From contig JAGFJA010000010.1 in assembly GCA_024103005.1 (NCBI GenBank), positions 1-64,000 on the forward strand: a stretch of 64,000 nucleotides of DNA. Direction: 5' to 3'. The notes below the pieces were generated by a model. It was not told the DNA's origin. It saw only the letters and a program-made list of their open reading frames with translations, and made no database searches. Shown piece by piece: positions 22,533-39,455 of this stretch. Positions within the stretch are counted from its first letter, which is position 1. The number at the start of each line of letters is the position of its first letter. Source of the DNA: Saprospiraceae bacterium (lineage in GTDB: Bacteria > Bacteroidota > Bacteroidia > Chitinophagales > Saprospiraceae). The position numbers and the translations under genes were made by a program.

Positions 22533-23257
22533 TTTCTGCGTTGAAGGACAAAGTGTGTTAAAGCTAAAAAGATCGATATGACTGAAAGAAAATAGACGAC
22601 ATCTTTCAAATCAATAACTCCTTTACTCATATTACCGTAATGGTAGTCAATTCCCAATTTCTGTAACCAGTAATCAATTTTACCGACAAAGACCGGAATC
22701 TTACTTACATATAAAAAGAACCATTGGCAGATAAAACATAAAAAAGTTCCTATTACAAAGGCAACTACCTGATTTTGGGTCAGTGAACTGGCGAAAATAC
22801 CGATAGACAGAAAGCTAGCTGAAAGAAAAAGCAAGCCGACATAAGATCCCATTATTCCTCCTGTATCCAGATTGCCTTTTGGTGAACCAAGCTGATACAC
22901 TGAATAATAGTAAACCAGAGTCGGCAATAAACATAAAATTATGAGAAAAAGGCCTGCAATGAACTTACCCAATATTATTTTAAAGTCTGAAATAGGCTTG
23001 GTGGCGAGGAGTTCAATTGTTCCGTTTTGTAATTCCTCTGCAAAAAAACGCATAGTTATTGCAGGAATTACGAAGGTAAAAATAGTTGGAGCCAAATAAA
23101 ACAAACCATCCATGTTGGCGTAATTTCCACTAAGGATACTGGTATCAGGGAAGAAAAACAACATCAATCCCATGACAAGCAAAAATACTCCGCTGATAAT
23201 CAATCCGGCTAATGAACTAAAGAAGGAAGCCATTTCTTTTAAAGCTATCGTCCACAT
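22526..23257 (-). CDS. gldF: Gliding motility-associated ABC transporter permease GldF
   Basis: This is an ABC-2 type permease of 243 residues with about six membrane helices. The signature between helices, FFAEELQNGTIELLATKPISDFKIILGKF (about 69-97), is characteristic of GldF and the related NosY-type permeases. It starts 6 bases after gldA and overlaps gldG, giving the canonical order gldA-gldF-gldG. The N-terminal MWTIALKEMASFFSS is the usual cytoplasmic lead-in. Confidence 0.92.
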   Translation of the reverse strand: MWTIALKEMASFFSSLAGLIISGVFLLVMGLMLFFFPDTSILSGNYANMDGLFYLAPTIFTFVIPAITMRFFAEELQNGTIELLATKPISDFKIILGKFIAGLFLIILCLLPTLVYYYSVYQLGSPKGNLDTGGIMGSYVGLLFLSASFLSIGIFASSLTQNQVVAFVIGTFLCFICQWFFLYVSKIPVFVGKIDYWLQKLGIDYHYGNMSKGVIDLKDVVYFLSVISIFLALTHFVLQRRKW

Positions 23258-23263
23258 AATTCG

Positions 23264-24181
23264 TTATCCTTTTGAGGTCAATTCATGAAAAACATCTTCC
23301 ATACTCAAAACTCTTTGTTCCATCCTGATGATTTTATAACCTGACTGAACTGCCAAGTTAAACAATTCTTCTCTGATATCTGCATCTCCTGCAATATGGA
23401 ATTCAAAAGCGTTATCTGCCTGAGAATTGATATGCCTGATTGATACAATTTTCTTAAAAACATTTAAATCAATTTGATTTTCCCGGGCAAACTGAATCAG
23501 AATACTGCTATTACCCTGATTTACTGTATGGAGTTGCTCTATTTTATCGTCCAGGACAATTTTCCCTTTATTTATAATGACTACTCTATTGCACAGTGCT
23601 TCAACCTCCTGCATTATATGGGTAGAGAAAATTACCACTTTTTCCTTTCCTATTTCTTTAATAACGTTCCTTATTTCAGCTAATTGATTTGGATCCAATC
23701 CGCTGGTTGGTTCATCCATTATCAAAATCTGAGGATTATGTATCATTGCCTGAGCCAGACCGACTCTCTGACGATATCCTTTAGAAATCTGACTTATTAG
23801 TTTATGTTGTTCCCGACCGAGCCCCGTCAATTCTATCATGTCCCTGACTTTGGCAGAAGGGTTATCCAATTTATACAATTTGGCCACATACAACAGATAT
23901 TCCTTGATATACATATCTTTGTATAATGGATTATTCTCGGGCAAGTAGCCCACTATTTTGCGTACCTCAATGGAATCAGTTTTTACATCGTAACCACCCA
24001 GCCGTACTTCACCGGATGTCTGGGGTATAAAACAGGATAATATCTTCATAGTTGTTGACTTACCGGCACCATTCGGACCGAGAAATCCAAGGATATCACC
24101 TTTAGAAACAGTAAAACTGACTGAATCCAGGGCTTTTTGCTGTCCGTATATTTTAGTCAGGTTCTTTACCTCTATAGACAT
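23264..24181 (-). CDS. gldA: Gliding motility-associated ABC transporter ATPase GldA
   Basis: This 305-residue ABC ATPase energises GldFG. It shows Walker A GPNGAGKST (35-43), the signature region ISKGYRQRVGLAQ, Walker B ILIMDEPTSGLD and the switch His in FSTHIMQE. The C-terminal 80 residues form the extension seen in GldA and related ABC-2 ATPases. I chose the ATG at 24181; the frame could start two codons earlier at TTG, which is less likely. It is the first gene of the operon gldA-gldF-gldG-DUF4340-zinc enzyme. Confidence 0.93.
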   Translation of the reverse strand: MSIEVKNLTKIYGQQKALDSVSFTVSKGDILGFLGPNGAGKSTTMKILSCFIPQTSGEVRLGGYDVKTDSIEVRKIVGYLPENNPLYKDMYIKEYLLYVAKLYKLDNPSAKVRDMIELTGLGREQHKLISQISKGYRQRVGLAQAMIHNPQILIMDEPTSGLDPNQLAEIRNVIKEIGKEKVVIFSTHIMQEVEALCNRVVIINKGKIVLDDKIEQLHTVNQGNSSILIQFARENQIDLNVFKKIVSIRHINSQADNAFEFHIAGDADIREELFNLAVQSGYKIIRMEQRVLSMEDVFHELTSKG

Positions 24182-24199
24182 ATTCAATGCTTAAAAATG

Positions 24200-24302: not shown

Positions 24303-24731
24303 CTACTCCCACAATTCGCCCGTGTAGCATACTGTTCCTTTAAAAATAGCTACTTGTTTACCTTGTTGGTTAAAAGCATGCACCAAAAAATGACCTAATG
24401 TTTTCCCGATTTTAACTATTTCTGATTTTGCTGTTATTATATTGTTCAAAAAAACCGGTGACAGGAGATTTATAGAAGATTCGACAGTTACAGCTTTATT
24501 GCCAAAAGAATTAGAGTGAAATGCCAATGCACTGTCACATAGTGAAAAGAGGATACCTCCATGTGCCAGCTGAAATCCATTGGTCATCGATTGCGTAATC
24601 CGGCAAGAAAGCACAACAGAATCTTCATTGACTTCATCTATATGTATTTCCATCCATCTGCTAAAGCCATCATTCGAATACATCTGATTATGGATGATGG
24701 ATAAGGCTCTTTCTTTGGACCATGCTGGCAT
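24303..24731 (-). CDS. PaaI-type hotdog-fold thioesterase
   Basis: This 142-residue protein hydrolyses acyl- or aryl-CoA thioesters in the PaaI subfamily. The active-site segment LAHGGILFSLCDSALAF (from about 55) holds HGG (57-59) and the catalytic Asp (D66). Length and layout match the family. Its ATG follows the stop codon of the molybdoenzyme gene without a gap (TAG then ATG), so the two are cotranscribed. Nothing else of the phenylacetate pathway is here, so its acyl-CoA substrate is unknown. Confidence 0.87.
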   Translation of the reverse strand: MPAWSKERALSIIHNQMYSNDGFSRWMEIHIDEVNEDSVVLSCRITQSMTNGFQLAHGGILFSLCDSALAFHSNSFGNKAVTVESSINLLSPVFLNNIITAKSEIVKIGKTLGHFLVHAFNQQGKQVAIFKGTVCYTGELWE

Positions 24732-27026
24732 CTATACTATCTTTTCTACCCTGATTTTAATAGATTTTGATACAGGCGTATTGCTTTTCTTAGCTGTCAA
24801 ATGAATGGGAACCAATGGATTAGCTTCAGGAAAATAGGTGGCTGTACAACCTTGAGGGATATCATAAGGAATAACTAAAAAGTTATGAACAATCCTTCTT
24901 TGACCATCATAGTTACTTACCAGGTTAACACATTCTAGTTCGGCTAACTTTAAATCTCGGACATCGGTGGGATTCATGAAAATTACTCTTCGTTCATTTT
25001 GCACTCCTCTATATCTGTCATTAAGCCCGTAAATAGTAGTATTAAACTGATCATGACTCCTGATTGTCATCATGAGCAGCTCTCCTTCTTCAATTTCCGT
25101 CTTCTTGGGTATAGTAACCGTAAAATTGGCTTTTCGGTTATGTGTATAATACTCATTTATTCTGGCACCATTGGGCAAATAAAAACCGCCATTCTTCCGA
25201 ACTCTTTCGTTGTAGTTTTCAAATCCCGGAATAGCTCTTTCAATATCATCACGGATGTTGTCATAATGAATCAAATATTTATCCCAGTCAATTCCGCTGT
25301 TGTCAAGGGTTGCCTTTGCCATTCTGACAATTATTTCCGGCTCAGACAGCATAAAATCACTCAGAGATTTCAGATTTCCGTTACTCTGATGTACGACTCC
25401 CATTGAATCTTCAACAGACACAAATTGTTTTGCTTCATTCTTAATATCAATATCTGTTCTTCCCAGGCTTGGAAGAATCAATGCTTCCTTTCCGTGAATT
25501 ACATGACTTCTGTTTAATTTGGTAGAAACCTGGACTGTCAGATTTGTATTCGTCAATGCCTGAGAAGTGTAATAGGTGTCCGGCGTGGCAGAAATAAAGT
25601 TACCGCCCATAGCAACAAAGACTTTTGCCTTTCCGGTATGAATTGCCTGAATTGCTTCCACTACATCATAGCCGTGATTTCTTGGAAATTTTTTATTAAA
25701 TGTCATATCCAATCTATCCAGAAAGGCTGTTGTCGGTTTTTCAAAAATACCCATTGTACGGTCGCCTTGTACATTTGAATGGCCTCTAACCGGACATAAT
25801 CCGGCACCGGGTTTACCTATAGAGCCTTTGAGTAACAGCAGGTTGACGCCTTCTTGAATGACTTCTACCGCATTCACGTGCTGAGTCCAACCCATAGCCC
25901 AGCATAGAATAATTTTTTCACTTTGGGCAATTTTATAGGCAGCAGCTTCTACTTCCTCATAAGTTAGCCCTGTTTCAGCAACCAAGTCTTCTATGGAGTA
26001 AGATTTTACATTTTGTTTCATTTCTTCAAAACCATGTGTATGATTCTGAATAAAGTTATGGTTGAGGATATTTCCTTTTTCTTCTTCCCATTTTAGTAAA
26101 AATGCTATCAGCGCTTTAAACAAGAACAAATCTGCGTTTATCTTTACCTGTAAATACTGGTCGCTTAGATGGGTGGACTGACCTAACCAGCCTTTAACAG
26201 ACTGAGGGTCACTAAAATTGAGCAAACCGGCTTCTTTGAGCGGATTAACGGCAATAATTTTACTGCCGTTGATTTTTGCTTTTTTCAAGGCCGAAAGCAT
26301 TCTAGGATGATTGGTACCGGGGTTCTGTCCGGCAATAATTATCAAATCGGTATTATAAAAATCTTCCAGTTTGACAGTGCCCTTTCCGATGCCGATTGTT
26401 TCAGTCAGAGCGACACCACTGGATTCATGACACATATTACTGCAATCCGGCAAATTGTTAGTGCCATAAGACCGGACAAAGAGCTGATAGAGAAATGCGG
26501 CTTCATTACTTGTTCTTCCTGATGTGTAAAAAACCGCTTCATTCGGATTTTCTAAACTTTTTAAATGTTTTGCTATAATAGTAAAGGCATTATCCCATGA
26601 TATTTCTTCATAATGACTTCCACCTTCCCTCAGGTACATCGGATGAGTAATTCTCCCGGCTTTTCCGAGTTCATAATCTGTCCATGATAATAATTCTGCA
26701 ACGGAATGTGAATTGAAAAATTCAGGACTTACTTTCTTGGTAGTGGCTTCTTCAGCAATAGCTTTGGCACCATTTTCACAATATTCTGCTACGCTGTTCC
26801 GGTGATCGTCGGGATCAGGCCATGCACACCCGGGGCAATCAACTCCTTGAAATTGATTCAAGCTATTCAGTGCTTTCAATCCTCTTCGGATGGGCATTTC
26901 ATCGATGATATGTTTAACCGACTGAACTACTGCCGGTATGCCTGCAGCTACTTTTTTAGCTTCACTCAATTCAATATCCAGCAAATGCTCGGGCATTGGT
27001 TGATCAGAAGGTGTCTCCTCTTTCAT
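24732..27026 (-). CDS. FdhF/YdeP family molybdopterin oxidoreductase
   Basis: This 764-residue enzyme belongs to the YdeP branch of the formate dehydrogenase-like molybdoproteins. The N-terminus has GVDCPGCAWPDPD (C64, C67) with a further Cys at 83, followed by molybdopterin-binding segments (YTSGRTSNEAAF, DCSNMCHESSG, IAGQNPGTNHPR, MGWTQHVNAVE) and a C-terminal dinucleotide-binding domain (MTIRSHDQFNTTIYGLNDRY). Physiological substrate is unknown in this branch; E. coli YdeP is linked to acid resistance. No fdhD or cofactor synthesis gene is nearby. Confidence 0.9.
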   Translation of the reverse strand: MKEETPSDQPMPEHLLDIELSEAKKVAAGIPAVVQSVKHIIDEMPIRRGLKALNSLNQFQGVDCPGCAWPDPDDHRNSVAEYCENGAKAIAEEATTKKVSPEFFNSHSVAELLSWTDYELGKAGRITHPMYLREGGSHYEEISWDNAFTIIAKHLKSLENPNEAVFYTSGRTSNEAAFLYQLFVRSYGTNNLPDCSNMCHESSGVALTETIGIGKGTVKLEDFYNTDLIIIAGQNPGTNHPRMLSALKKAKINGSKIIAVNPLKEAGLLNFSDPQSVKGWLGQSTHLSDQYLQVKINADLFLFKALIAFLLKWEEEKGNILNHNFIQNHTHGFEEMKQNVKSYSIEDLVAETGLTYEEVEAAAYKIAQSEKIILCWAMGWTQHVNAVEVIQEGVNLLLLKGSIGKPGAGLCPVRGHSNVQGDRTMGIFEKPTTAFLDRLDMTFNKKFPRNHGYDVVEAIQAIHTGKAKVFVAMGGNFISATPDTYYTSQALTNTNLTVQVSTKLNRSHVIHGKEALILPSLGRTDIDIKNEAKQFVSVEDSMGVVHQSNGNLKSLSDFMLSEPEIIVRMAKATLDNSGIDWDKYLIHYDNIRDDIERAIPGFENYNERVRKNGGFYLPNGARINEYYTHNRKANFTVTIPKKTEIEEGELLMMTIRSHDQFNTTIYGLNDRYRGVQNERRVIFMNPTDVRDLKLAELECVNLVSNYDGQRRIVHNFLVIPYDIPQGCTATYFPEANPLVPIHLTAKKSNTPVSKSIKIRVEKIV

Positions 27027-27075: not shown

Positions 27076-28383
27076 CTAAAATTCAGATAACAGTGACAAC
27101 CGGTATAACAAAAGAGCTGTTCTCTTTGCTTCAATTGGAAGGCAATTCAGATCTGCTGTCTCTTCAATGGTATGGCCGCCGGTTCCGCACATACCTATTC
27201 CGTCTATTGCCATCTTGACGTCATCTGCCACAAAAGAAATATCAGCTGCGCCCGAGTTCCGAGGGTTTACAGGATAGACCGGACCATAATCAAGGTCTTC
27301 ACTAATCTTAGAATACATAGCCAATAGTTGTTTGTTGCCCTCCGTCATTGTCATGGGTGGATATCCATCATCTCCAAAAGTCAGGGTTGCTGTGGTATGA
27401 GGATAGTTATCACGGATAATTTCCATCATAATTTGCCGTGTCCTTTCGAGCTGATCCTTTGAAACAGCCCTCATGTCTCCCGTAACGATTACTTCTTTTG
27501 ATACGATATTATTCTTACCGAAGGCTTCTGATTTTTGCGTTTCAACATTATAGGAGACTGAATTACCTCCGCTTATCAAACCCGGATTAAAAGTAAAGTT
27601 GACTTCAGTGCCAAGTTTTTTATAAAATTCGTTTAAAATACGCGCAGTCTCAAAAATTGCTCCTGCGCCTATTTCAGGCTGGAATATCTGTGAGCTGTGT
27701 GCTGGAATTCCGGTTACTTTAAGCGTCCAGTCTGCCGACCCGCGTCTGGATATATTTGCATTTTCCAATTTACCGTCACCGTCTTCAAATCCGATAGCAA
27801 TATCAGCCCATTTGCCGGCTTCAACTAAATCTTTCTTAGATAATTCCAATGGATTACCACTTAGTTCTTCATCGCCAACAAGGAAAACTTTGACGGAAAC
27901 CTTGTCTAAAAGATTGTTTTCTTTCAAAGCTTTAAGTGCCAGTAGCATGATGACGTCTCCACCCTTCATATCCAGAGCTCCTGGACCATGAATCATATGG
28001 CCGTCTTTGATTTCATATTGCTGAAAGGGACTATCCGGTTCAAAGACTGTGTCCAAATGCCCGATTAAAAGGATTTTTGGACCTTTAGATGAAATTTTCG
28101 TAGCCACAAGGTGACCTGCTCTGCCAAACGCATCACCCGGAATCCATTGGACTTCAAATCCCAAGTCCTTATATTCCCTGGCAAATATTTCACCGACCTG
28201 ACGCACTCCCTTCAGGTTAAAGGTACCACTATTGATATTGACAACTGTTTTCAACAAATCAATTGCCATCTCAGTATTTTGATCAACAGATCGAACTAAT
28301 TTTTTTTCGGTTTTTGCCAATTGAGCCTCTGCCACGAAGACATAATTTATCGTACAAAACAAGAGTAGAAATAATCTCAACAT
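27076..28383 (-). CDS. Secreted M20 family metallopeptidase (glutamate carboxypeptidase-like)
   Basis: This 435-residue dizinc exopeptidase resembles carboxypeptidase G2. It has a signal peptide (ending about VAEAQ, 21). Visible metal and catalytic residues are H109 and D111 in GHLDT, the bridging D138 in GALDMKGG, the catalytic Glu and zinc Glu in DEE (171-173), and a C-terminal His in TGGHTIEE. The insert between them is the dimerisation domain. It directly follows the cyanophycinase gene with no gap, so it could cleave the dipeptides released by that enzyme, for example beta-Asp-Arg. That substrate is inference. Confidence 0.88.
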   Translation of the reverse strand: MLRLFLLLFCTINYVFVAEAQLAKTEKKLVRSVDQNTEMAIDLLKTVVNINSGTFNLKGVRQVGEIFAREYKDLGFEVQWIPGDAFGRAGHLVATKISSKGPKILLIGHLDTVFEPDSPFQQYEIKDGHMIHGPGALDMKGGDVIMLLALKALKENNLLDKVSVKVFLVGDEELSGNPLELSKKDLVEAGKWADIAIGFEDGDGKLENANISRRGSADWTLKVTGIPAHSSQIFQPEIGAGAIFETARILNEFYKKLGTEVNFTFNPGLISGGNSVSYNVETQKSEAFGKNNIVSKEVIVTGDMRAVSKDQLERTRQIMMEIIRDNYPHTTATLTFGDDGYPPMTMTEGNKQLLAMYSKISEDLDYGPVYPVNPRNSGAADISFVADDVKMAIDGIGMCGTGGHTIEETADLNCLPIEAKRTALLLYRLSLLSEF

Positions 28384-29235
28384 CTATTTTATTAATTTAA
28401 ACCTTTCTCCTTCAGTGAAAATATCTACTTTGATATCTCTTGCTGAAAATCGTCCTGATTTGGCTACCTTTATGTGTTTACCCGGACGGAATACAAGAAC
28501 CTGACTTTCACCAAAGACAGTACCATAATTTCCCTGTACCATTAAAGCAGTTGATTCATCTATCCCGATTCCAATATTATGAGGATATTCAAGGATAGCC
28601 GTTAATAATCGATTGTGCCTGCTTCTAATGATAAAATGCTGGTCGATAATAGCATTTCGTAAAAATCCTAATCCTTGAGCTGTATCTACATTATTTTTCC
28701 TAATTGTTTTAAAGGTTGCACTATAGACAGTATCCAGTTTTTGGTTGCCGGTAAGCATTATGGCGCTCATAACAGCAGCTCCTGCGCTGGTTCCGGCAAT
28801 CATTCCACCGTTTTCCAGGCAAGACCTCATTGCTTTTTCAACAGGTGTATTGAGGACCGCTTCCATAAATCTGTTTTGGTCCCCACCACTGATGAAAACA
28901 ATTTTAGCTTTTCTGACAGAATCAATCTTAAGTGTATTAGAAGTATCATTTTTGTCAAAATTGATTCCAAAGCAGTTCTTAATGCCAATTTGTTGCATAG
29001 ATTTTTGCATGGAAGTTATTGCCTGATTGGGATAGCTGCTTGCCATTGGTAAGACGACCATATAATCAGCTTCGTTGAAATGGGCTTCACTTATCATTTG
29101 ATTCAATAAAGAGGCGGGTTTATTCCCGCCTCCTATGATAAATAACTTACCTTTTGAAGTAATCCCTTGTCCAGTTATTGAGTTGAAAACAAAACAACCA
29201 AAGAGTATAAATAAATTTAGTGTTGTCCGCATCAT
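28384..29235 (-). CDS. Secreted cyanophycinase (peptidase family S51)
   Basis: Cyanophycinase cuts the polymer cyanophycin into beta-Asp-Arg dipeptides. The 283 residues carry a signal peptide (to about TGQ, 23) and the S51 fold: FIIGGG (32-37), ISGGDQNR (115-122), nucleophile S150 in GTSAGA, DQHF (198-201) and GIDEST (224-229). The spacings S150-H200-E227 agree with the Ser132-His174-Glu201 triad of Synechocystis CphB as I recall it, and D198, Q199, R204 and R209 fall at its substrate-binding positions. The signal peptide implies action outside the cytoplasm. It overlaps the PKD lipoprotein gene by 4 bases and abuts the M20 gene. Confidence 0.9.
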   Translation of the reverse strand: MMRTTLNLFILFGCFVFNSITGQGITSKGKLFIIGGGNKPASLLNQMISEAHFNEADYMVVLPMASSYPNQAITSMQKSMQQIGIKNCFGINFDKNDTSNTLKIDSVRKAKIVFISGGDQNRFMEAVLNTPVEKAMRSCLENGGMIAGTSAGAAVMSAIMLTGNQKLDTVYSATFKTIRKNNVDTAQGLGFLRNAIIDQHFIIRSRHNRLLTAILEYPHNIGIGIDESTALMVQGNYGTVFGESQVLVFRPGKHIKVAKSGRFSARDIKVDIFTEGERFKLIK

Positions 29236-30371
29236 CCTTTTTTCTTGCCAAAGACAATACCTTTCGGGCTGGCTCCTGAAGCCTGATAAAAAGTCTCCAG
29301 GCCTGAACCATCCGGATTACATCTTTTGATGGCACCCAGATTTCTATCCCCGAAGTAAATCATTCCGGTTGTGGGTTCATAGTTCAAGCCATAGACAACT
29401 CTTGTAATTCCGGTCGTCAAGGTAGCGACATTACCACCGTAAAAATCGGCAGACTTCAAATGTATATCGCCTGATCCGTTATAATAATCAAAGAATATCC
29501 TATTTCCTACTACGATAATACTTCCGCCTTCAGCATCAGGGATAATTTCTTTTTCAGCTCCGCCGTCAAGTCCTTTAGTCCATACACCGCCATCGTAATT
29601 TATCCAAAACAAGCTTCTAGTTACCGGGTCGAGGGCAACACCATCCGGGTCATTGCTCTGCCCGGTCACAAAATCTTCATACAAATCAACCTGATCACTA
29701 TTCAAATCTGTGCGTTGAATTCCTGAAGAATTATCCCAATACATTTTATTGGATTGGTAATCTATACACATACCATTTGGCGAGTCCAGCCCGCTTCGCC
29801 AAATTTTTTGATTTTTCCCATCCAGATCAGCCTGTATAATCTGACCGGCATCTACATCAGATATATATAGTTTATTATGTAATGTATCAATACACATACC
29901 ATACGATCCCTGAATATTTGAAATAGGAATTTGTTCAAAAACGGGCGCAACATCATTGATTAGCCCTGAAAACACCAGAGTACCATCTGTAAAGTAAATA
30001 GGAATTCCTGAAGCATTTGGATCTTTAATTACGATGGTTTGGCTAGTCTGCTTGATTAGCCCATTTCCTGATGTAACAACAACTAATTTTACTTCATATA
30101 TTCCTGATTCCTGATATAGATGGACCGGATTGACTTCATTAGATGTTGTATTATCTCCGAAATTCCAGGTATATTGTGCTGTACCGGCTTCAGCAGGAAT
30201 AATTGAATTATTGGTGAATGTTACCGTAGCGGGTGCAATACCATCATTATCAACCGTAAAGGTAAACTTAGGAACCACACTGGCAGGAGGAACAGGAAAA
30301 TCATCCTTATCACATGAAAAGAATAATGCAACCAGAAGGAAAAATAAACTATATTTTATGAATAATTTCAT
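29232..30371 (-). CDS. Lipoprotein with PKD domain and YWTD-like beta-propeller
   Basis: This 379-residue protein has a lipoprotein signal peptide (LVALFFSC, Cys about 20) followed by DKDD, an acidic stretch like the surface-export signal of Bacteroidota lipoproteins. Residues about 33-115 form a PKD domain (YTWNFGDNTTSNEVNPVH). Residues about 125-375 form a propeller with repeats such as NKMYWDNSSGIQRTDLN and RSLFWINYDG, like LDL-receptor class B repeats. It probably binds a ligand at the cell surface. It is a paralogue of the next gene upstream and lies between it and the cyanophycinase gene. Confidence 0.8.
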   Translation of the reverse strand: MKLFIKYSLFFLLVALFFSCDKDDFPVPPASVVPKFTFTVDNDGIAPATVTFTNNSIIPAEAGTAQYTWNFGDNTTSNEVNPVHLYQESGIYEVKLVVVTSGNGLIKQTSQTIVIKDPNASGIPIYFTDGTLVFSGLINDVAPVFEQIPISNIQGSYGMCIDTLHNKLYISDVDAGQIIQADLDGKNQKIWRSGLDSPNGMCIDYQSNKMYWDNSSGIQRTDLNSDQVDLYEDFVTGQSNDPDGVALDPVTRSLFWINYDGGVWTKGLDGGAEKEIIPDAEGGSIIVVGNRIFFDYYNGSGDIHLKSADFYGGNVATLTTGITRVVYGLNYEPTTGMIYFGDRNLGAIKRCNPDGSGLETFYQASGASPKGIVFGKKKG

Positions 30372-30397
30372 CCAATTATGAAATTTTATGTATTAAA

Positions 30398-31741
30398 TTA
30401 TTTTATTAAAATGCCTCTTGGGCTATCCAATCCTGTGAGAAAAGATTCTTCTGAAGTGCCATCCAGATTAGCCCTTCTGATTTCGCCCAAGTCTCGGTCC
30501 GCCCAATACAGCTTATTATGATCATAGTCAATGGCAAATCCATGGATTCTGGTTTTACCGGTTGTTGCAAAAGTAACAGTACCGGTACCATCCAGGTTGG
30601 ATTGAATAATTGACTGGCTGTTTCTTTCGTCATAATATAGCTTATTGTTAACCTCATCAACAAGTATTCCATATCCGTAAACGCCTGATACCAAGGCGGT
30701 AACACCTGTTCCATCAGCATTTGCGACGTAAAGATCTTCATTATTTACTTCATAAAAATAGAGTTTGTTATTCTTGCTATCAAAAGCAAGTCCACGCATC
30801 TGACCATCTGGAATATTGATAAATGCAGTCTCCAATCCTGTTCCATCAAGATTTGCCCTTGAAATGTTTCCATTGTCGTCCGCCCAGTATATTTTACCGT
30901 CTGCAAGATTCAAAGCAACAGAATAAGGATCCGTAATTCCGCTTGCAATCTCTTCTAAGTTGGTTCCATCAGCATTTACTCTCCATATCTTTCCTTCATC
31001 GGCATTTTCGAAGTCACTGAAGTAGAACTTATTATTTGTTGCGTCAAAAGCCAATCCAACTCCCCCTTTACCTGCAATATCCAGAAACAGTTCAGAAGCA
31101 GAACCTGATGCCAGATTGATTTTCTTAATAGTGTTAGCATCACCCAATTCAATATAATACAGGTCTTTGGCAACAGTTCCCTGCTTAACTGTAATTTCTT
31201 TGGTTGCGGTTGCCGATCCGCCTGCTCCCGTTGCTTTAAGAGATACGGTATATGTACCTGCTTCCGCATAAGTAAATTTAGGATTCTCTTCTGTGGATTT
31301 TGAGTTATTGGCATCACCAAAACTCCATTCATAAGTGGCAGCACCCTTTGATTGATTTGTAAATTGTACAGCATTACCGGAGCTTAAATTACTTTCATCC
31401 TCAACAACAAATGCAGAAAGAGGTGTAACTGTAATTTGAGCCTGAGACGAACTGGTTCCACCGGCTCCTGTAGCAGTCATTGAAACGGTATATGTTCCGG
31501 AAGTACTGTAGGACTTTTTTGGATTGGCATCTGTGGAAGTTGTTCCGTCGCCAAAACTCCATACATAAGAAGATGCATTTTTTGAGTTATTGGTAAACTG
31601 AATTTCCTCATCAACCGTGACCGTAGTTTTGCTGGCAGTAAATGAGCCTTCTGTTTTGGGTGTATCATCATCTTTTTTACACCCTACAAATACAATTAAT
31701 GTCAAAAACAATAATGGTAATAGTCTTTTTAAATTATTCAT
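30398..31741 (-). CDS. Lipoprotein with two PKD domains and YWTD-like beta-propeller
   Basis: This 447-residue protein has a lipoprotein signal (IVFVGC, Cys 21) followed by KKDDDT, a likely surface-export signal. Two PKD domains follow (about 30-110 and 112-190; SSYVWSFGDGTT and ATYEWSFGDANN). A propeller fills about 195-447 with units such as GKIYWADDNGNISRANLDG and NKLYWADRDLGEIRRANLDG. It is probably a surface binding protein. It lies 21 bases after susD and shares its architecture with the following gene, which has one PKD domain less, suggesting a tandem duplication. Confidence 0.82.
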   Translation of the reverse strand: MNNLKRLLPLLFLTLIVFVGCKKDDDTPKTEGSFTASKTTVTVDEEIQFTNNSKNASSYVWSFGDGTTSTDANPKKSYSTSGTYTVSMTATGAGGTSSSQAQITVTPLSAFVVEDESNLSSGNAVQFTNQSKGAATYEWSFGDANNSKSTEENPKFTYAEAGTYTVSLKATGAGGSATATKEITVKQGTVAKDLYYIELGDANTIKKINLASGSASELFLDIAGKGGVGLAFDATNNKFYFSDFENADEGKIWRVNADGTNLEEIASGITDPYSVALNLADGKIYWADDNGNISRANLDGTGLETAFINIPDGQMRGLAFDSKNNKLYFYEVNNEDLYVANADGTGVTALVSGVYGYGILVDEVNNKLYYDERNSQSIIQSNLDGTGTVTFATTGKTRIHGFAIDYDHNKLYWADRDLGEIRRANLDGTSEESFLTGLDSPRGILIK

Positions 31742-31762
31742 TTTATGGTATTTTAAACTTAA

Positions 31763-33091
31763 TCAATAACCCGGATTTTGATTCATTCCCGGATTTGTAT
31801 TCGTCAATATTTCACTTTGCGGTATGGGGAAAAGAAGTTGATAGCTCTCCTTGACATTTGGCAGAATATCTAAAGCTCTTCCTGTCCTGACAAGGTCAAA
31901 CCATCGCTGTCCTTCGAATGCAAGTTCAAACCTTCTTTCTTTCTCAATAGCTGATAGTAATTCGCTTATATTATTGGTAGTAATATCTTCCAAACCTGCG
32001 CGTTTTCTTATTTTATTCAAATCAGAAAGAATATCATTCGCATTACTGTTCAATTGTGCCAATGCCTCTGCACGAATTAAATACATTTCAGCCAACCTCA
32101 GCACGATGATATTATCTCCTCCGGTAGATAAGTCATCATATTTAATTACATACGGAGTTGTCCCGGAATAAGCAAAAGTAGCATCCAACCGACTATCATT
32201 AACATCATAGGAAGCGACAAAATCGGGATCCGGAGCTACTTCCCCTCTACCGTTTTTAGTCAATGGAAAATTATACTCAGCTACCCTGTTTCTGTCAAGA
32301 GGAGTAAAGTCAACTTCAAATATAGATTCTTTTGATTCATCTGTAGAAAATACGTCAGCATAATTATCCAATAAGGTATAGCCGCCTTCATTAATAACCT
32401 TGGAGGCATACACAACTGCATTGTTATAATCCTTTTTATACAAATAAACTCTTGCTAATAAAGCATTTGCAGCACCACGAGATGCTCTTGTTTTTTGAGA
32501 AGAATTATTTGTAAGATGATCTGATGCAAAGGTCAGATCCTGAATAATGGAGGCATACATCTCATCAACGGAATTGCGGACCGCATTAACTTCAGATAAT
32601 CCAATTGTGGGCTTTAACTTTAATGGCACACCACCAAAGTAAATCAATAGATTAAAATGATTAAGGGCCCTTAAAAAATATAATTCCCCAAGTGCCTTAT
32701 CCTTCTCTTCCTGTGAAAGAAAATTCATTTGAGGTATTTTAGCAATAACATTATTTGCAACATTCAAACCATCGTAAATGGCTGACCACATACCATCAAC
32801 CGAGGCATTTTCCGGAAGTATGTGATTGTTATCAATTTCGGCATATTCCGTAGAAGTAGCATTTAAAGGGTGTATCAGATTATCACTCGCCAGATCGGAA
32901 AAGGTTATATATGTACGACCATAATAACTAAGGGCCTGGAGTGAGTTGTAAGCCCCTAAAATACCTCTGTCAACATCCGCTTTTGTTTTATAAACCTCTG
33001 ATGCAGGGATAGAAGCCGTAGGTTCGACATCCAAAACGTCACAAGATGAAAACCCAATTATAAATATTAAAAAAATAAAAATACTTTTCAT
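31763..33091 (-). CDS. RagB/SusD family outer-membrane lipoprotein
   Basis: SusD-type proteins are surface lipoproteins that cap the SusC channel and capture the nutrient. I chose the ATG at 33091, which gives MKSIFIFLIFIIGFSSC, a clean lipoprotein signal; the frame could begin 5 codons earlier at an ATG inside susC. The protein then has 442 residues, with LDVEP just after the Cys, TPR-like helices, and the typical C-terminal block RRFELAFEGQRWFDLVRTG (about 395-413). The preferred start lies 1 base past the SusC stop codon, showing tight coupling. Confidence 0.93.
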   Translation of the reverse strand: MKSIFIFLIFIIGFSSCDVLDVEPTASIPASEVYKTKADVDRGILGAYNSLQALSYYGRTYITFSDLASDNLIHPLNATSTEYAEIDNNHILPENASVDGMWSAIYDGLNVANNVIAKIPQMNFLSQEEKDKALGELYFLRALNHFNLLIYFGGVPLKLKPTIGLSEVNAVRNSVDEMYASIIQDLTFASDHLTNNSSQKTRASRGAANALLARVYLYKKDYNNAVVYASKVINEGGYTLLDNYADVFSTDESKESIFEVDFTPLDRNRVAEYNFPLTKNGRGEVAPDPDFVASYDVNDSRLDATFAYSGTTPYVIKYDDLSTGGDNIIVLRLAEMYLIRAEALAQLNSNANDILSDLNKIRKRAGLEDITTNNISELLSAIEKERRFELAFEGQRWFDLVRTGRALDILPNVKESYQLLFPIPQSEILTNTNPGMNQNPGY

Positions 33092-33092
33092 A

Positions 33093-36047
33093 TTAAAAAC
33101 CAGCATTTAATCCAAACGAAAAGCTTCTTGCCTGTGGATAAGTGAAAAAATCTGTTCCTATACGTGCATTGTCATCTCCCCGGTAATTTACCTCGGGATC
33201 CAGTCCGGAATAATTGGTAAATGTCAACAAATTTTGACTTGTAAAATATAATCTGAGGGATGAAATCTTACCTTTCAATATATTTTTTGTATTAAAATTA
33301 TATCCAAAAGTAAGGTTTTTAAGCCTCAAATAAGAGCCATCCTCCAGAAATCGGGAAGATTGTCGCTTATTATTCGCTGAGGCTACCGGATCCAGCGTAG
33401 CACGCGGTATATCTGTAATATCTCCTACATTTTTCCATCTCCGGTTTATGGCTGCCAACTGATTGTCGCCACCTTGTAATGATTCCAGATAAAGCCTTGA
33501 CCCGTTAAAAATGTCATTTCCCTGAGACCCCTGAAAGAAGATATTAAGATCAAAGTTCCCATATCTGAAGGAATTCGTTACTCCGTAAATAAAATCCGGA
33601 TGAGGATCTCCTATTTTTGTTCGGTCGTCTGAAGTAATTTGACCGTCAAAATTCTTATCGGCATAAACTACATCACCGGTCGAAGGATCGACTCCCAACC
33701 ATTCGAAGCTGTAAAAGATTCCAATTGGCTCACCTTCTTCAATACGATTTCCACCTCTTCCCAGATCATCTATCGGCTGGTGATTGTACAGCTTAACGAC
33801 TTTGTTTCTATTCATCGAAAAGTTAACTCTCGTATTCCATTGCAGTTTTCGGCCGGACAAGTTTTCAGATGAAACCGTAACTTCCAATCCCTTATTTTCT
33901 ACTACGCCGATATTCTCGGTGATGGAGGAGAAACCGGATGACGGAGGCAGAGGACGACTTAAAAGTAAATCTTTGGTCATTTTTCGATAAACATCAAGGT
34001 TAACCAGCAATCTGTCAGCAAAAAAGCCCAGATCCAACCCTACATTAGCTTGTGCCGTGGACTCCCATTTCAGGTCAGGATTGGGGATATTGCTCGGGTA
34101 AACTGCAGGTTTGCCACCATAGGTTGTATTTCCATACAATTCAGCATAGAGAAAGGCAGGAATATCATCATTTCCGGTAATTCCATAACTTGCTCTCAAT
34201 TTCAACTCAGATATGACACCTTTAGGAAAAAAATCTTCAGCTCCGATTCGCCATGCAGCCGAAACAGCCGGAAAAAATCCGTTTCTATTTTTTTCACTGA
34301 AATTTGACGAACCATCCAAGCGACCGGAAAGAGATACGATGTATTTGTCAAGAAGATTATAATTCACTCTTCCAAACCAACTCCTGATACCTGCATCAGA
34401 GGCCCCAGAACTCGCCGAAACAATGGTAGAGGCGCTATTGATATATTGCAGACTCGGATCAGCATAATCCTGTGCACGGATAAAGGAGCTTCTGTAATTT
34501 TTCTTTTCGAAAGAATATCCGCCTAAAATTTCAAACTTATTGTCTGAGAGGTCAAAGGCATACTTTAATGTATTGTTTGACACCAGATTTGCTACATTAG
34601 TATATGTTTCGAATCCCAGGCCATTGTATTTTGCACCTTGAATAGTTTTAATTGACTCATAGGCATGCTCTCTAAAATTAAGAAAATCTATTCCCCATTT
34701 AGTCGAAAAGGTCAGACCATCAATCAATTTTATGTCAGCATAAACATTACCAAGCCCGCGATATGAAAAGTTTTGGTTGATTGCCTCATTGGCTATTGAG
34801 ACCGGGTTAGAGTAAGGTCCGCTTTGATTGTAGCTACCATCCTCATTATATACAGGGAAAATAGCCGGCGTTGAAATACCATTTGGCAGTGGCCCATGCA
34901 ATGTCTGATCACCTTCTACCCTGTCTGTTTTAGCATAGGACAATCCTATGCTGGTACCTATAGTAATAAACTTATTGACCTTGTGATCCAGATTTACCCT
35001 GCCATTCATTCGACTGTAATCTGTGCCTATCAAAATACCTGTCTGATTAAATAAATTACCGCTTATGTAAAATCTGGTTTTTTTATCTCCGCCTGTGGTG
35101 GACAACTCATAATTAGACATCGGAGCCGTCCTGAAAATCACATCTTGCCAATTTGTGTTAATGGTATTGTCATTTATTTGATCTTGCGTGAAAACCTCTG
35201 TTCCGAACAAGTCATTTCTGTATATCTTCCAATCGTGTGCATTAAGCATGTCCAGCTTTCGCCAGGTATTCTGCCAGCCATAGGAAGCAGTAAAATTTAT
35301 ACTAGAATTTTTCTGACTACCTCTTTTAGTTGTAATCAAAACGACACCATTGGATGCCCTTGCTCCATAAATAGCTGCAGCCGCGGCATCTTTCAGGATG
35401 GTGATAGATTCAATATCACCCGGACTTAAATCAGATAGCTGATTTACGCCCTGACCTTCATAACCAATCTGCGCATAGTCACCTGTAGTCACCGGAATAC
35501 CATCAATCACATACAGAGGTTGAGAGCTTCCACCAATCGAACTGACGCCCCTTATCCTAACTGACATACCTCCGCCCGGCGTACCTGAATTCTGAACCAC
35601 CTGAACACCTGATGCCTGCCCCTGCATAACACCATCAATAGTAGGAACAGGCAAATCCTTAATCTCGTCCGAACCAACAATTCCTACCGAAGACGTCAGA
35701 GTCTTTTTTTGTTCCACGCCATAGCCCACGACAACAACCTCATTCAGAATCTTGATATCTTCCTGTAAGACAACATCAATTTTGGTTCTATTGCCTATTT
35801 CGACAGTTTGAGGCAAATAACCTACATAAGAAAATTCAATTGATTTTATATCCGGAGAAATCATCAGTGAATAATTACCGTCAATATCAGTAGATGTAAC
35901 GATATTGCTATCCGTAGCTTTCACTGTAACCCCGATGAGCGGAGTACCGGAATTATCCTTGACGGTTCCGCCTATTTGCCCGAAAAGGGCGCAGGTCGAT
36001 ATTACCAATCCAATAAGAGTGAAACACCTAAGTAATTTAACTTTCAT
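33093..36047 (-). CDS. SusC/RagA family TonB-linked outer-membrane transporter
   Basis: This 984-residue protein imports oligomers across the outer membrane together with SusD. It has a signal peptide (ending LFGQ, 24), a CarboxypepD_reg-like domain (about 26-105, GGTVKDNSGTPLIGVTVKA), the SusC plug signature (VVVGYGVEQKKTLTSSVG, about 106-123; IRGVSSIGGSSQPLYVIDG) and a 22-strand barrel ending FSFGLNAGF. It is the first gene of the operon with SusD, two propeller lipoproteins, cyanophycinase and M20 peptidase, which suggests import of a peptide-like polymer product, not a glycan. Confidence 0.95.
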   Translation of the reverse strand: MKVKLLRCFTLIGLVISTCALFGQIGGTVKDNSGTPLIGVTVKATDSNIVTSTDIDGNYSLMISPDIKSIEFSYVGYLPQTVEIGNRTKIDVVLQEDIKILNEVVVVGYGVEQKKTLTSSVGIVGSDEIKDLPVPTIDGVMQGQASGVQVVQNSGTPGGGMSVRIRGVSSIGGSSQPLYVIDGIPVTTGDYAQIGYEGQGVNQLSDLSPGDIESITILKDAAAAAIYGARASNGVVLITTKRGSQKNSSINFTASYGWQNTWRKLDMLNAHDWKIYRNDLFGTEVFTQDQINDNTINTNWQDVIFRTAPMSNYELSTTGGDKKTRFYISGNLFNQTGILIGTDYSRMNGRVNLDHKVNKFITIGTSIGLSYAKTDRVEGDQTLHGPLPNGISTPAIFPVYNEDGSYNQSGPYSNPVSIANEAINQNFSYRGLGNVYADIKLIDGLTFSTKWGIDFLNFREHAYESIKTIQGAKYNGLGFETYTNVANLVSNNTLKYAFDLSDNKFEILGGYSFEKKNYRSSFIRAQDYADPSLQYINSASTIVSASSGASDAGIRSWFGRVNYNLLDKYIVSLSGRLDGSSNFSEKNRNGFFPAVSAAWRIGAEDFFPKGVISELKLRASYGITGNDDIPAFLYAELYGNTTYGGKPAVYPSNIPNPDLKWESTAQANVGLDLGFFADRLLVNLDVYRKMTKDLLLSRPLPPSSGFSSITENIGVVENKGLEVTVSSENLSGRKLQWNTRVNFSMNRNKVVKLYNHQPIDDLGRGGNRIEEGEPIGIFYSFEWLGVDPSTGDVVYADKNFDGQITSDDRTKIGDPHPDFIYGVTNSFRYGNFDLNIFFQGSQGNDIFNGSRLYLESLQGGDNQLAAINRRWKNVGDITDIPRATLDPVASANNKRQSSRFLEDGSYLRLKNLTFGYNFNTKNILKGKISSLRLYFTSQNLLTFTNYSGLDPEVNYRGDDNARIGTDFFTYPQARSFSFGLNAGF

Positions 36048-36350
36048 AGATATTTATTATAGAAAACAATGCAATATTATAAATTTAATAAGAGCAAACA
36101 TAACAAATAATATTTTATATTTTACTGTATCAACAATAAATCATGGAATCAATAAAATAATAATAACTAAAAATTTGGTTGTATTTAAATTAAAACAAAG
36201 TCTATTATAAATGTTTTAAAGATATTAAAAATATTTAAACCTTTCTCAATAAAAACAAGTGTATTTTAGTTATATATTATATCATATTTGATTATCTTAG
36301 CGCCCATTAGGCATTCCTTTTTCGTAATTTTTTACCAATCATATATTATT
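36048..36350. other. Divergent intergenic region between SusC and DUF1800 genes
   Basis: This 303-base, very AT-rich spacer must hold the promoters of both the SusC operon (minus) and the DUF1800-DUF1501 pair (plus). The minus-strand -7 box is at 36095-36102. For the plus strand TATCTTAG at 36293-36300 is one mismatch from TAnnTTTG. No hairpin or obvious operator repeat is seen, and there is no sigma/anti-sigma pair beside it. Confidence 0.5.
36095..36102 (-). promoter_or_regulatory. Candidate -7 box for the SusC operon
   Basis: The minus strand reads TATGTTTG followed by C, a full match to TAnnTTTG, 48 bases before the SusC start codon. The -33 element is not clear. Confidence 0.45.
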
Positions 36351-37799
36351 ATGGCAGATTGTAATAATTCAAATCTGGATACTTATGTTCCATCATCCGA
36401 GAAACCATGGAACGAACAACGTATCAAGCATTTATATTTCAGACTGGGTTATGGCATTACGACCAAGGAAATCACTCAGTTGTTATCTGTTAATCCGATT
36501 GATCATATTGAGAATATGTTGGATCATGCTTATTCTCTACCTGTTTATCCCGAACCGGTCTGGGCTAATTGGAAGCCTGACCAGTTTAATGAAGAGGACG
36601 GTACAGAGCACTATATCATTTACAATCAATTCGTTACGGACTGGATCAATGAATGTGTGCAAGATCCGGTGCGGAATAAGATAGCATTTTTTTGGAGCAA
36701 CCATTTGGTTACCAAGTGGGAAGACTACTATTATTCACCTATATTATATAGGTATGTTATACTATTGCAGCGGAATGCATTGGGTAATTTTAAAACAATG
36801 ATTTCAGAGATCGGGTTGGATGACAGTATGCTGATCTTTCTCAATGGTATCCAAAATACAAAGTATGAACCAAATGAGAATTACGCACGGGAATTATTCG
36901 AATTGTTTACGTTAGGTCTGGATAATGGCTATACCGAAACGGATATTCGTGAAGCCGCCAGGGCTTTTACAGGGTTTAATGATGTAGATTACGAGAATAT
37001 TACCATTAAATTTTATCCGGGAACCCATGATTATGGTTCCAAAACAATTTTTGGAGAAACCGGACCATTTGGTTATGATGATGTGGTAAATCTATTATTC
37101 GAAAAGAGGGGGCAATTAGTCTGTAAATTTGTGTGCACCAAGATTTACAAGCATTTTGTAAATGCTGAACCAAATCAGGCAATTATAGACCAATTGGCTC
37201 AGATAATGTATGATAACAACTTTGAATTACTACCCGTATTTAAAAAACTATTCTGTTCTGAGCATTTCTTTGATCAGATGGAATTTAATACACATATCAA
37301 AAGTCATGTTGAATACTTCACCGGAATTTTAAAACAATTCGGCTATACGATTAATTACGACGAAGGCGGCTCAATTATTTGGTTTAATTCGTCGCTCGGA
37401 CAGACTTATTTTGACCCGATAGATGTAGCCGGCTGGAAGGAAAACAAGACCTGGATTGACTCCGGAAGTTTGATGACAAGATGGCTTTATACCGGATGGA
37501 TGGTCGATAGCATTATCTGGAACAACAAAGATTTTGTCATTAACTTTTTAAAAGAAATTTCCAACGACAGTAATGATGTGGAATATGTCATGCAATGTAT
37601 AATCGCCCCATTCTTTGTTAATGGTTTATCCGCACCTATATATTATGACAATTTATTGAGGGCATTCAAGGCAGATTTGCCTCAGAACTATTACGATCAG
37701 GGACTTTGGAATTTAAATTGGGATCCGGATTTTATATGTTATCAGGTTTCATTATTGTTTGCTGAAATGAAATTATTACCTGAATTCGGACTTTGTTAA
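36351..37799 (+). CDS. DUF1800 family protein
   Basis: The 482-residue protein carries the DUF1800 hallmark NYARELFELFTLGLDNGYTETDIREAARAF (about 183-212 of the ATG form) and the late block DVAGWKENKTWIDSGSLMTRW. DUF1800 proteins are almost always encoded next to DUF1501 proteins; their activity is not established. I chose the ATG at 36351 (MADCNNSNLDT), which leaves no signal peptide. The open frame extends upstream to a TTG at 36288, adding a partly hydrophobic stretch, but that overlaps the likely promoter. It is followed 36 bases later by the DUF1501 gene. Confidence 0.88.
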   Translation: MADCNNSNLDTYVPSSEKPWNEQRIKHLYFRLGYGITTKEITQLLSVNPIDHIENMLDHAYSLPVYPEPVWANWKPDQFNEEDGTEHYIIYNQFVTDWINECVQDPVRNKIAFFWSNHLVTKWEDYYYSPILYRYVILLQRNALGNFKTMISEIGLDDSMLIFLNGIQNTKYEPNENYARELFELFTLGLDNGYTETDIREAARAFTGFNDVDYENITIKFYPGTHDYGSKTIFGETGPFGYDDVVNLLFEKRGQLVCKFVCTKIYKHFVNAEPNQAIIDQLAQIMYDNNFELLPVFKKLFCSEHFFDQMEFNTHIKSHVEYFTGILKQFGYTINYDEGGSIIWFNSSLGQTYFDPIDVAGWKENKTWIDSGSLMTRWLYTGWMVDSIIWNNKDFVINFLKEISNDSNDVEYVMQCIIAPFFVNGLSAPIYYDNLLRAFKADLPQNYYDQGLWNLNWDPDFICYQVSLLFAEMKLLPEFGLC

Positions 37800-37835
37800 A
37801 ATTTAAATTATTGAATTTCATCAAAAAACTAAAAA

Positions 37836-39455
37836 ATGAAAAACAACATATATAAAAGAGGGCTTCAATTAAAGGATGGTATTTTACACGAAGAAGACCA
37901 CATTGAATATTCCCGCAGACGATTTATAAAATCCTTTGGTCTGGCCGGTGGTGTTGGATTTATGCTGGGAAAACTTCCAATAAGTGTTGCGAGTCTTACC
38001 AGATGGTCTATGCCTCCTATCCTGGAAAAATCTGACAGAATTCTAATTCTGATAAGATTAAAAGGCGGAAATGATGGCATCAATACCATTATACCACTCG
38101 ATCAATTATCAGCGTATCACAATGCAAGACCTACCCTGGGATTTGCCGACGAAGAAATGATAAATCTGAATGATCAGATTGCCATGAATCCGTATATGGT
38201 TGAATTGAAGAGACTTTGGGATGATGGAATGATGAAGGTTATTCAGGGAGTCGGCTATCCTGAACAAAACATGTCACACTTCAGATCAACTGATATCTGG
38301 GCAAGTGCTTCAGATAGTGACAAGTTAGTTAACTCAGGTTGGATAGGCCGGTATGTCGAAGATATCTTTCCGAATTATGTAGAGGACACACCTATTTATC
38401 CTCCGGCTATTCAAATAGGTGGCGGAAGCTCTCTTCTATTTACCGGAGAACAGGTTGATAAGTTAGGTTTTGAAGCATTTTCAGCAGAACAAATATCTGA
38501 ATTAGCTGCAAGTGGACAGGTTCACTCATTAGATAATCTTCCGGCATGTTCATATGGGGACCAGTTGAAATACATCCGAATAATGACAAACTCTACTTAC
38601 AAGTTTGTAGAATCATTGAAAGCAGCCTACGATCTTGGTTCTGAATCATCCTTGCCTTATGAAGATGCTGATTTTCCTCAGGCTTTAAAGATTATCGCCA
38701 GGCTTATAAAAGGAGGATTAAAAACTAAAATTTATGTCGTAGAGTTGGATGGATTTGACACCCATGCAAATCAAATTCCTACCCATGAAATGCTGTGGAA
38801 GCAATTCTCCGGTGGCGTGAATAATTTTTACAAAGATTTTGAAGGCACTACCTATGAAGACAAGATTCTAACCGTAACATTTTCTGAATTCGGCCGACGG
38901 GTGCAACAAAATGATGGACCCGGTACTGACCATGGTGCCGCAAGTGTTATGCTGGCGTTTGGAAAATGCCTTGAAGGTAATGGTACCCTGGGTAAATATC
39001 CGAGTCTGACTGAATTAGACGACAATGACAATTTGGTCTTTAATGTAGATTTCAGGCACATATATAGTACGTTGTTTACAGAATGGCTTTGCCTGGAAGA
39101 TGACCACAGCGATGCCATTCTATTCAAGGATTTCGGTGATCCACTTGATTTCGGTTTTATGTGCCAAGAAGTTTCATCAGTCAATAAAAGACCTAAGTCA
39201 AGCTACAGTCATTTTGCTTCTTATGGGCTTGGAGATGTATTTATAAATTATACCATCCCTAAAGACACCATGGTAATGGTCGAACTTATATCTATGGATG
39301 GGAAAGCCATCTTACTAGACAGACCAATGTTAAAAAAAGCCGGAACATACCAGATACCGGTTAAACAAAGCCAAAGAAAATTAATGCCGGGAGCTTATGT
39401 TTATCGAATACGCATAACCGGAGCTGAATTTTCCGGCAAACTGATTTTACATTAA
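37836..39455 (+). CDS. DUF1501 family protein with Tat-like signal and T9SS-like tail
   Basis: DUF1501 proteins are alkaline-phosphatase/sulfatase-fold proteins of unknown activity. The 539 residues show a twin-arginine motif SRRRFIK (about 26-32) followed by a hydrophobic stretch (GLAGGVGFMLG), the family motifs KGGNDGINTIIP (about 74-85) and SEFGRRVQQNDGPGTDHGAA (about 350-369), and a C-terminal region (about 465-539) ending PGAYVYRIRITGAEFSGKLILH that looks like a T9SS type A sorting domain. It forms a pair with DUF1800. Combining Tat and T9SS signals would be uncommon. Confidence 0.87.
   Translation: MKNNIYKRGLQLKDGILHEEDHIEYSRRRFIKSFGLAGGVGFMLGKLPISVASLTRWSMPPILEKSDRILILIRLKGGNDGINTIIPLDQLSAYHNARPTLGFADEEMINLNDQIAMNPYMVELKRLWDDGMMKVIQGVGYPEQNMSHFRSTDIWASASDSDKLVNSGWIGRYVEDIFPNYVEDTPIYPPAIQIGGGSSLLFTGEQVDKLGFEAFSAEQISELAASGQVHSLDNLPACSYGDQLKYIRIMTNSTYKFVESLKAAYDLGSESSLPYEDADFPQALKIIARLIKGGLKTKIYVVELDGFDTHANQIPTHEMLWKQFSGGVNNFYKDFEGTTYEDKILTVTFSEFGRRVQQNDGPGTDHGAASVMLAFGKCLEGNGTLGKYPSLTELDDNDNLVFNVDFRHIYSTLFTEWLCLEDDHSDAILFKDFGDPLDFGFMCQEVSSVNKRPKSSYSHFASYGLGDVFINYTIPKDTMVMVELISMDGKAILLDRPMLKKAGTYQIPVKQSQRKLMPGAYVYRIRITGAEFSGKLILH

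Follow-up and report, generated by a model that had tools for sequence, protein, structure and literature searches.

What would a bacterium that makes no cyanophycin do with a cyanophycinase gene set inside a SusCD-type uptake operon? This question is raised by six minus-strand genes at positions 27076-36047 of a 64,000-nucleotide stretch (hereafter, the window) of a Saprospiraceae bacterium genome (GenBank assembly GCA_024103005.1, contig JAGFJA010000010.1). Cyanophycin, a polymer in which cyanobacteria store nitrogen, is 26% nitrogen by mass (PMC10206079), and its recycling by Bacteroidota after cyanobacteria die has so far been mostly inferred. We consider it likely that the six genes form one operon that scavenges cyanophycin, or a closely similar beta-aspartyl polymer, from the environment of a cell that is unable to make it.

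Operon layout and conservation

The initial annotation described six tightly packed genes, and all six open reading frames were recovered, with spacings of -14, 21, 26, -4 and 0 bases in the 5' to 3' order susC-susD-PropA-PropB-S51-M20 (susD overlaps susC by 14). The identities it gave them were upheld by Pfam and NCBIfam models with curated cut-offs, which were used for all family assignments. The first gene (33093-36047) encodes a SusC/RagA-type TonB-dependent outer-membrane transporter of 984 amino acids (TIGR04056, 882 bits against a cut-off of 368, plus the TIGR04057 signature), and the second (31763-33106) a SusD/RagB-type surface lipoprotein of 447 amino acids (PF07980, SusD_RagB; PF14322, SusD-like_3). 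Two predicted surface lipoproteins follow: PropA (30398-31741), with two PKD domains (PKD_4) and a YWTD/DUF5050-like propeller (DUF5050 above its cut-off; Ldl_recept_b), and PropB (29232-30371), with PKD_4 and an SGL-like propeller. The last two genes encode an S51 cyanophycinase-type serine exopeptidase of 283 amino acids (28384-29235; Peptidase_S51 and TIGR02069) and a carboxypeptidase-G2-like M20 metallopeptidase of 435 amino acids (27076-28383; PF01546, Peptidase_M20; PF07687, M20_dimer). Since SusC and SusD are adjacent and share the operon with surface lipoproteins and a degradative enzyme, the locus is a SusCD-type uptake locus resembling polysaccharide utilisation loci. No regulator (extracytoplasmic function sigma/anti-sigma pair or hybrid sensor) was seen beside susC in the window, the upstream gene being a divergent DUF1800 gene; a FecR-like gene precedes susC in the Gelidibacter algens locus (L068).

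The order susC-susD-PropA-PropB-S51 recurs in eleven other genomes, in ten of which the M20 gene is adjacent. The full order is kept in a genome of the same genus (G002, whose record shows interruptions in the reading frames of susC and M20), in another genus of the same family (G049) and in another family of the same class (G367, a single-contig genome of 4.5 Mb carrying the whole operon), and also in Gelidibacter algens, Flavobacteriaceae UBA5544 (L076), Arcticiflavibacter luteus (L097), Aequorivita sp. (L127), Winogradskyella thalassocola (L106) and Winogradskyella psychrotolerans (L111). Pseudochryseolinea flava (L102) has the operon with M20 inverted, and Bacteroidetes OLB9 (L069) has the first five genes only. 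Window-type SusD proteins, defined by an identity of 60% or more, were confined to operon-bearing genomes in both samples searched: among 149 relatives they occurred only in the window genome (G000), G002 and G049, the next best matches reaching ~39-41%, and in a sample of 395 Bacteroidota genomes just one further strong match emerged, the G367 SusD (60%). The operon, found in Flavobacteriaceae, in Cytophagales and in the window's own lineage, presents itself as a concrete uptake system, and its named cultured carriers (G. algens, W. thalassocola, W. psychrotolerans and P. flava) make it testable.

Linkage of S51 genes to SusCD pairs extends beyond this operon type. Among ~85,000 species genomes we collected the 80 S51 loci most similar to the window S51, of which 66 had long flanks; SusC and SusD lay within ~10 kb of S51 in 45 of the 66 (14 of 29 outside Flavobacterium), against none of 17 control loci with S51 of the CphB type, a rate that is not valid for all S51 genes because the 80 loci were picked by similarity. 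The arrangement in the window is not due to chance. The genome's 3.46 Mb contain no more than 7 full SusC genes, so S51 and M20 genes would not be expected inside a SusCD operon by chance, and the recurrent gene order, the restriction of the SusD to operon genomes and the excess of SusCD over the controls together rule out chance clustering. An assembly artefact or accidental neighbourhood, suggested by nothing more than the genome being a draft in 80 contigs, is extremely improbable given that eleven further genomes keep the order and that one of these is a single contig. The S51 and M20 genes are thus not a combination confined to this genome, the outcome that the initial annotation had named as fatal to its reading.

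The S51 enzyme

The S51 protein scored 163.4 bits against the cyanophycinase model TIGR02069 (cut-off 126.6) and 41 bits against the PepE model, so far below the cut-off of 156 that we rejected peptidase E as its identity. Among solved structures, the cyanophycinases 7uqv, 3en0 and 7uqw come closest to it. Seven residues had been proposed to lie at the spacing of Synechocystis CphB, and all of them align with their CphB equivalents (S150 with S132, H200 with H174, E227 with E201, D198 with D172, Q199 with Q173, R204 with R178 and R209 with R183), as do R206 (R180) and Q120 (Q101). The window S51 therefore has all nine catalytic and pocket residues of CphB, namely the triad S150, H200 and E227 and six others, whose counterparts Gln101, Asp172, Gln173, Arg178, Arg180 and Arg183 are listed as critical both to CphB activity and to a pocket beside Ser132 (PMC3235067, after Law et al. 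2009). All 94 related proteins taken from other genomes keep Q120, S150, D198, H200, R204, R206, R209 and E227, and 93 of them keep Q199. The N terminus resembles a signal peptide without a lipobox, likewise in most operon orthologues (all signal peptides were assigned by eye). A scan of viral contigs for S51 gave no match.

These features bear on an alternative in which the operon serves to take up and trim peptides of another kind, such as oligopeptides from decaying protein that are acidic or contain isoaspartyl residues, the S51 protein being a beta-aspartyl or peptidase-E-like exopeptidase and the M20 protein a general carboxypeptidase. The weak match of S51 to the PepE model and the closeness of M20 to carboxypeptidase G2 would suit such a system, as would RagAB of Porphyromonas gingivalis, which shows that SusCD pairs can import oligopeptides (cited in PMC9723704, in the part of that source available to us). 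RagAB and the window pair are both of the SusCD type, a likeness by description, although that part of the source mentions no cyanophycinase partner for RagAB. We regard this alternative as unlikely: the S51 protein matches the cyanophycinase model at 163 bits as opposed to 41 for PepE, it keeps the nine pocket residues, and related S51 genes lie near genes for arginase, ornithine aminotransferase and IadA or IaaA, as set out below.

Scavenging and storage

That the window holds no cyanophycin synthetase, and that scavenging is therefore likelier than storage, had been proposed from the window alone. No cyanophycin synthetase exceeded the cut-off anywhere in the window genome (estimated to be 100% complete), in which the best match to the CphA model reached 112.7 bits against 850, and CphA over cut-off was also absent from G001 (same genus), G002 and G049. 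Because the genome has no synthetase, scavenging fits, and we rejected a storage role of the operon on the same ground. S51 cyanophycinases usually serve storage beside CphA, but mobilisation of the cell's own cyanophycin by this S51 enzyme is highly improbable, since G000, G002 and G049 have no CphA and the S51 that neighbours CphA in other genomes is of a different type, ~30% identical. An ornithine aminotransferase gene is present in the window genome and also in G001, which has no such operon, and is thus not specific. Among the CphB-type loci (L047-L065), the CphA-linked S51 proteins (9 checked) differ from the window type in having Ser or Thr at the position of Gln173; an IaaA-like gene neighbours some of these loci.

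S51 neighbourhoods in other Bacteroidota

Several arrangements recur around related S51 genes. Bacteroidales-like loci read SusC-SusD-PKD lipoprotein-S51-YfcC, with IadA added in L146. Flavobacterium loci combine SusCD, ornithine aminotransferase, sometimes arginase, an AsnC-type regulator, S51 and a penicillin-amidase-family enzyme; in the 37 with long flanks, S51 lies near ornithine aminotransferase in 34 and near arginase in 11. Pedobacter shows the order SusCD-S51b-S51, and in Salinimicrobium and Salegentibacter S51 is convergent to SusDC. Elsewhere S51 lies near IadA or IaaA, which are named beta-aspartyl peptidases, and near YfcC, a putative antiporter of basic amino acids. Of the other neighbours, arginase and ornithine aminotransferase act in arginine degradation. 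Since these neighbours include beta-aspartyl peptidases, a basic amino acid antiporter and arginine-degrading genes, the S51 neighbourhoods are compatible with an aspartate-arginine polymer as substrate. Flavobacterium SusD proteins are only ~27-33% identical to the window SusD, below many unlinked SusD proteins of relatives, so SusCD and S51 probably came together on more than one occasion.

Some of these loci merit description in their own right. Between SusCD and S51, L072 (6997-13055) and Flavobacterium loci like it have the AsnC-type regulator and divergent genes for arginase and ornithine aminotransferase; after S51 comes the penicillin-amidase-family (PvdQ-like) enzyme. This is apparently an alternative cyanophycin locus. 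In L079, L086, L133, L135 and L146, S51 is followed by the YfcC-type putative antiporter, with IadA in L133 and L146; these are nearest to the published iadA-type locus discussed below. An IaaA-type beta-aspartyl-peptidase gene directly follows SusC-SusD in L158 (1513-7198; G022:C420) and L148 (G003:C25), and in G003 this SusCD-IaaA locus also lies near S51, YfcC and an S51 of the type IX secretion system (T9SS) type.

Cell compartments and proposed pathway

In PropA the residues after the lipobox read C-KKDDD and in PropB C-DKDDF. The motif C-X-K-(D/E)2 is a surface export signal defined for Bacteroidetes lipoproteins (PMC5080379); both proteins fit it, and a similar motif occurs in all 10 PropA orthologues examined, so PropA and PropB are predicted surface lipoproteins, as the initial annotation had supposed. 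Neither a lipobox nor a T9SS tail is present on the S51 or M20 protein of the operon, which suggests that both are probably periplasmic and would act after SusCD import. Both enzymes do appear to bear signal peptides, as first described, whereas the proposed cutting of polymer before import does not agree with their apparent location.

The window genome encodes a second S51 protein outside the window (432 amino acids; G000:C17, L064:8146-9444), which has a sorting domain of T9SS type A. In G049, G367, L068, L097, L106, L111 and L127 its counterpart comes immediately after M20. On the strength of this domain and this position, the T9SS-tailed protein appears a better candidate than the operon S51 for an extracellular cut. 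Its substrate is uncertain because it scores 64.8 bits, under the cyanophycinase cut-off, and in the alignment has Thr at the Gln173 position and no equivalent of Arg178. A Na+/solute-symporter-like gene adjoins it in the window genome.

The pathway below, from the substrate and compartments to the succession of steps and the reaction of M20, is our inference. The surface lipoproteins SusD, PropA and PropB would bind the polymer, and granules would first be cut outside the cell, probably by the separate T9SS-secreted S51. TonB-energised SusC would import chains or oligomers, from which the periplasmic S51 cyanophycinase would release beta-Asp-Arg dipeptides, and the M20 enzyme may split these into Asp and Arg for uptake across the inner membrane.

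Several observations weigh against this proposal. The operon is dispensable, as both it and a window-type S51 are missing from G001, a genome of the same genus. Membership in TIGR02069 is no proof of activity, and the Flavobacterium associations represent one ancestral arrangement, not 37 independent ones. Cyanophycin chains, typically of 80-400 units (PMC10206079), are large for the SusCD import step. G091 and G060 have M20 orthologues (60% and 47% identical, respectively) that stand outside any such operon, and the operon of Bacteroidetes OLB9 has no M20 within 10 kb.

The M20 peptidase

Carboxypeptidase G2 (1cg2) was the top match of the M20 protein both by sequence and by predicted fold. 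The protein has the catalytic and dimerisation domains and the metal-site residues of that enzyme, the presumed metal ligands H109, D111, D138, E172, E173, E200 and H404 being invariant in 9 operon orthologues. The fold search confirmed no more than a carboxypeptidase-G2-like fold, and against the curated glutamate carboxypeptidase model NF004788 the protein reached 167.7 bits, below the cut-off of 349. It matches Peptidase_M20 and is not a member of IadA (TIGR01975) or IaaA (PF01112).

IadA had no match in the window genome; the iadA gene of the published locus is lacking, and M20 stands in the cluster instead. IadA exceeded its cut-off in none of 11 genomes with window-type loci (G000, G002, G049, G367 and the genomes of L068, L069, L076, L102, L106, L111 and L127) and in all four genomes with YfcC-type S51 loci. 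M20 adjoins S51 in 11 of 12 window-type operons, the window included. This adjacency and the complementary pattern of M20 and IadA make the M20 protein the natural candidate for a beta-Asp-Arg dipeptidase. The locus classes compared are clades, so that the pattern does not reflect many independent events, which weakens this assignment; three Flavobacterium and Pedobacter genomes also have no IadA, and there M20 is not beside S51. We therefore put forward only tentatively, and with some doubt, that M20 is a periplasmic beta-Asp-Arg dipeptidase from a family not known for that activity, and one of the 'undiscovered' isoaspartyl dipeptidases of Bacteroidota. If so, M20, SusCD and the two cyanophycinases (T9SS-secreted and periplasmic) would make up a complete extracytoplasmic cyanophycin pathway.

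There is a nearly even chance that cyanophycin is the substrate of the operon while M20 cuts another bond, the dipeptides being split in the cytoplasm or by a glycosylasparaginase of the genome. The M20 orthologues found without the operon speak for this, as does a glycosylasparaginase-type Asparaginase_2 protein encoded in the window genome. Glycosylasparaginase-type enzymes have been reported to cleave beta-aspartyl peptides, and this one could be an alternative dipeptide-splitting enzyme. We rejected it as a dedicated IaaA because, among solved structures, it matches glycosylasparaginases best (386 bits, compared with 128 for an isoaspartyl peptidase) and because it is also present in operon-less G001, a distribution that, with the IadA pattern and the position of M20 beside S51, argues for the M20 enzyme as dipeptidase.

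Comparison with known systems

Clusters of cyanophycinase genes, iadA and a transporter have been described as a 'cyanophycin utilization locus' (Ben Hania et al. 2017, as outlined in PMC10206079), and such clusters occur in genomes without CphA1 (PMC10206079). The window likewise has a cyanophycinase gene clustered with a transporter and no cyanophycin synthetase. As far as the outline goes, the locus of Salinivirga cyanobacteriivorans L21-Spi-D4 resembles it in clustering cyanophycinase, transporter and dipeptidase (in the window, the candidate M20) in a Bacteroidota scavenger with no storage role. Compared by the same partial description, the Salinivirga locus has iadA, whereas the window type has none in the genome and instead has M20 and two PKD/propeller lipoproteins. 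The transport complex of the published locus is reportedly called homologous to polysaccharide utilisation loci in the 2017 abstract. The general idea of a cyanophycin locus is thus not new; new are M20 in place of IadA, the two PKD/propeller lipoproteins and an order conserved across several families. Isoaspartyl dipeptidases of Firmicutes and Bacteroidota are said to 'remain undiscovered' (PMC10206079), a statement made of CphA1-containing genomes, unlike the window genome. The operon M20 is a ready candidate for the final enzyme that this 2023 survey could not find in Bacteroidota.

Among individual enzymes, the intracellular CphB of Synechocystis (3en0/7uqw) belongs to the same S51 family and shares the full set of catalytic and pocket residues, whereas no CphA partners the window S51, which also bears a signal peptide. 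The extracellular CphE of Pseudomonas is, like the window S51, an exported S51 enzyme, but its gene measures 1260 bp and Thr replaces Gln173 in the protein (PMC3235067), whereas the window S51, of 283 amino acids, has Gln; the T9SS-tailed S51, with Thr at this position, is more CphE-like in that respect. In Citromicrobium sp. JLT1363, a TonB-dependent transporter gene lies beside a cyanophycinase gene, and in 2012 cyanophycin was inferred to be a TonB-dependent substrate (PMC3400609). Citromicrobium differs from the window case in not belonging to Bacteroidota, and the available portion of that report does not mention SusD, the lipoproteins or M20.

Neighbouring genes

A DUF1800 and DUF1501 gene pair (36288-39455) is divergent from susC in the window; the operon of G002 (L033) does not have this pair beside it. 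Just behind M20, a thioesterase-like gene and a molybdopterin oxidoreductase gene abut (24303-27026); in G002 the thioesterase-like gene directly follows M20 and the oxidoreductase is absent. Further along, three same-strand genes (20787-24187) resemble, by eye, a GldG-GldF-GldA gliding-type ABC exporter.

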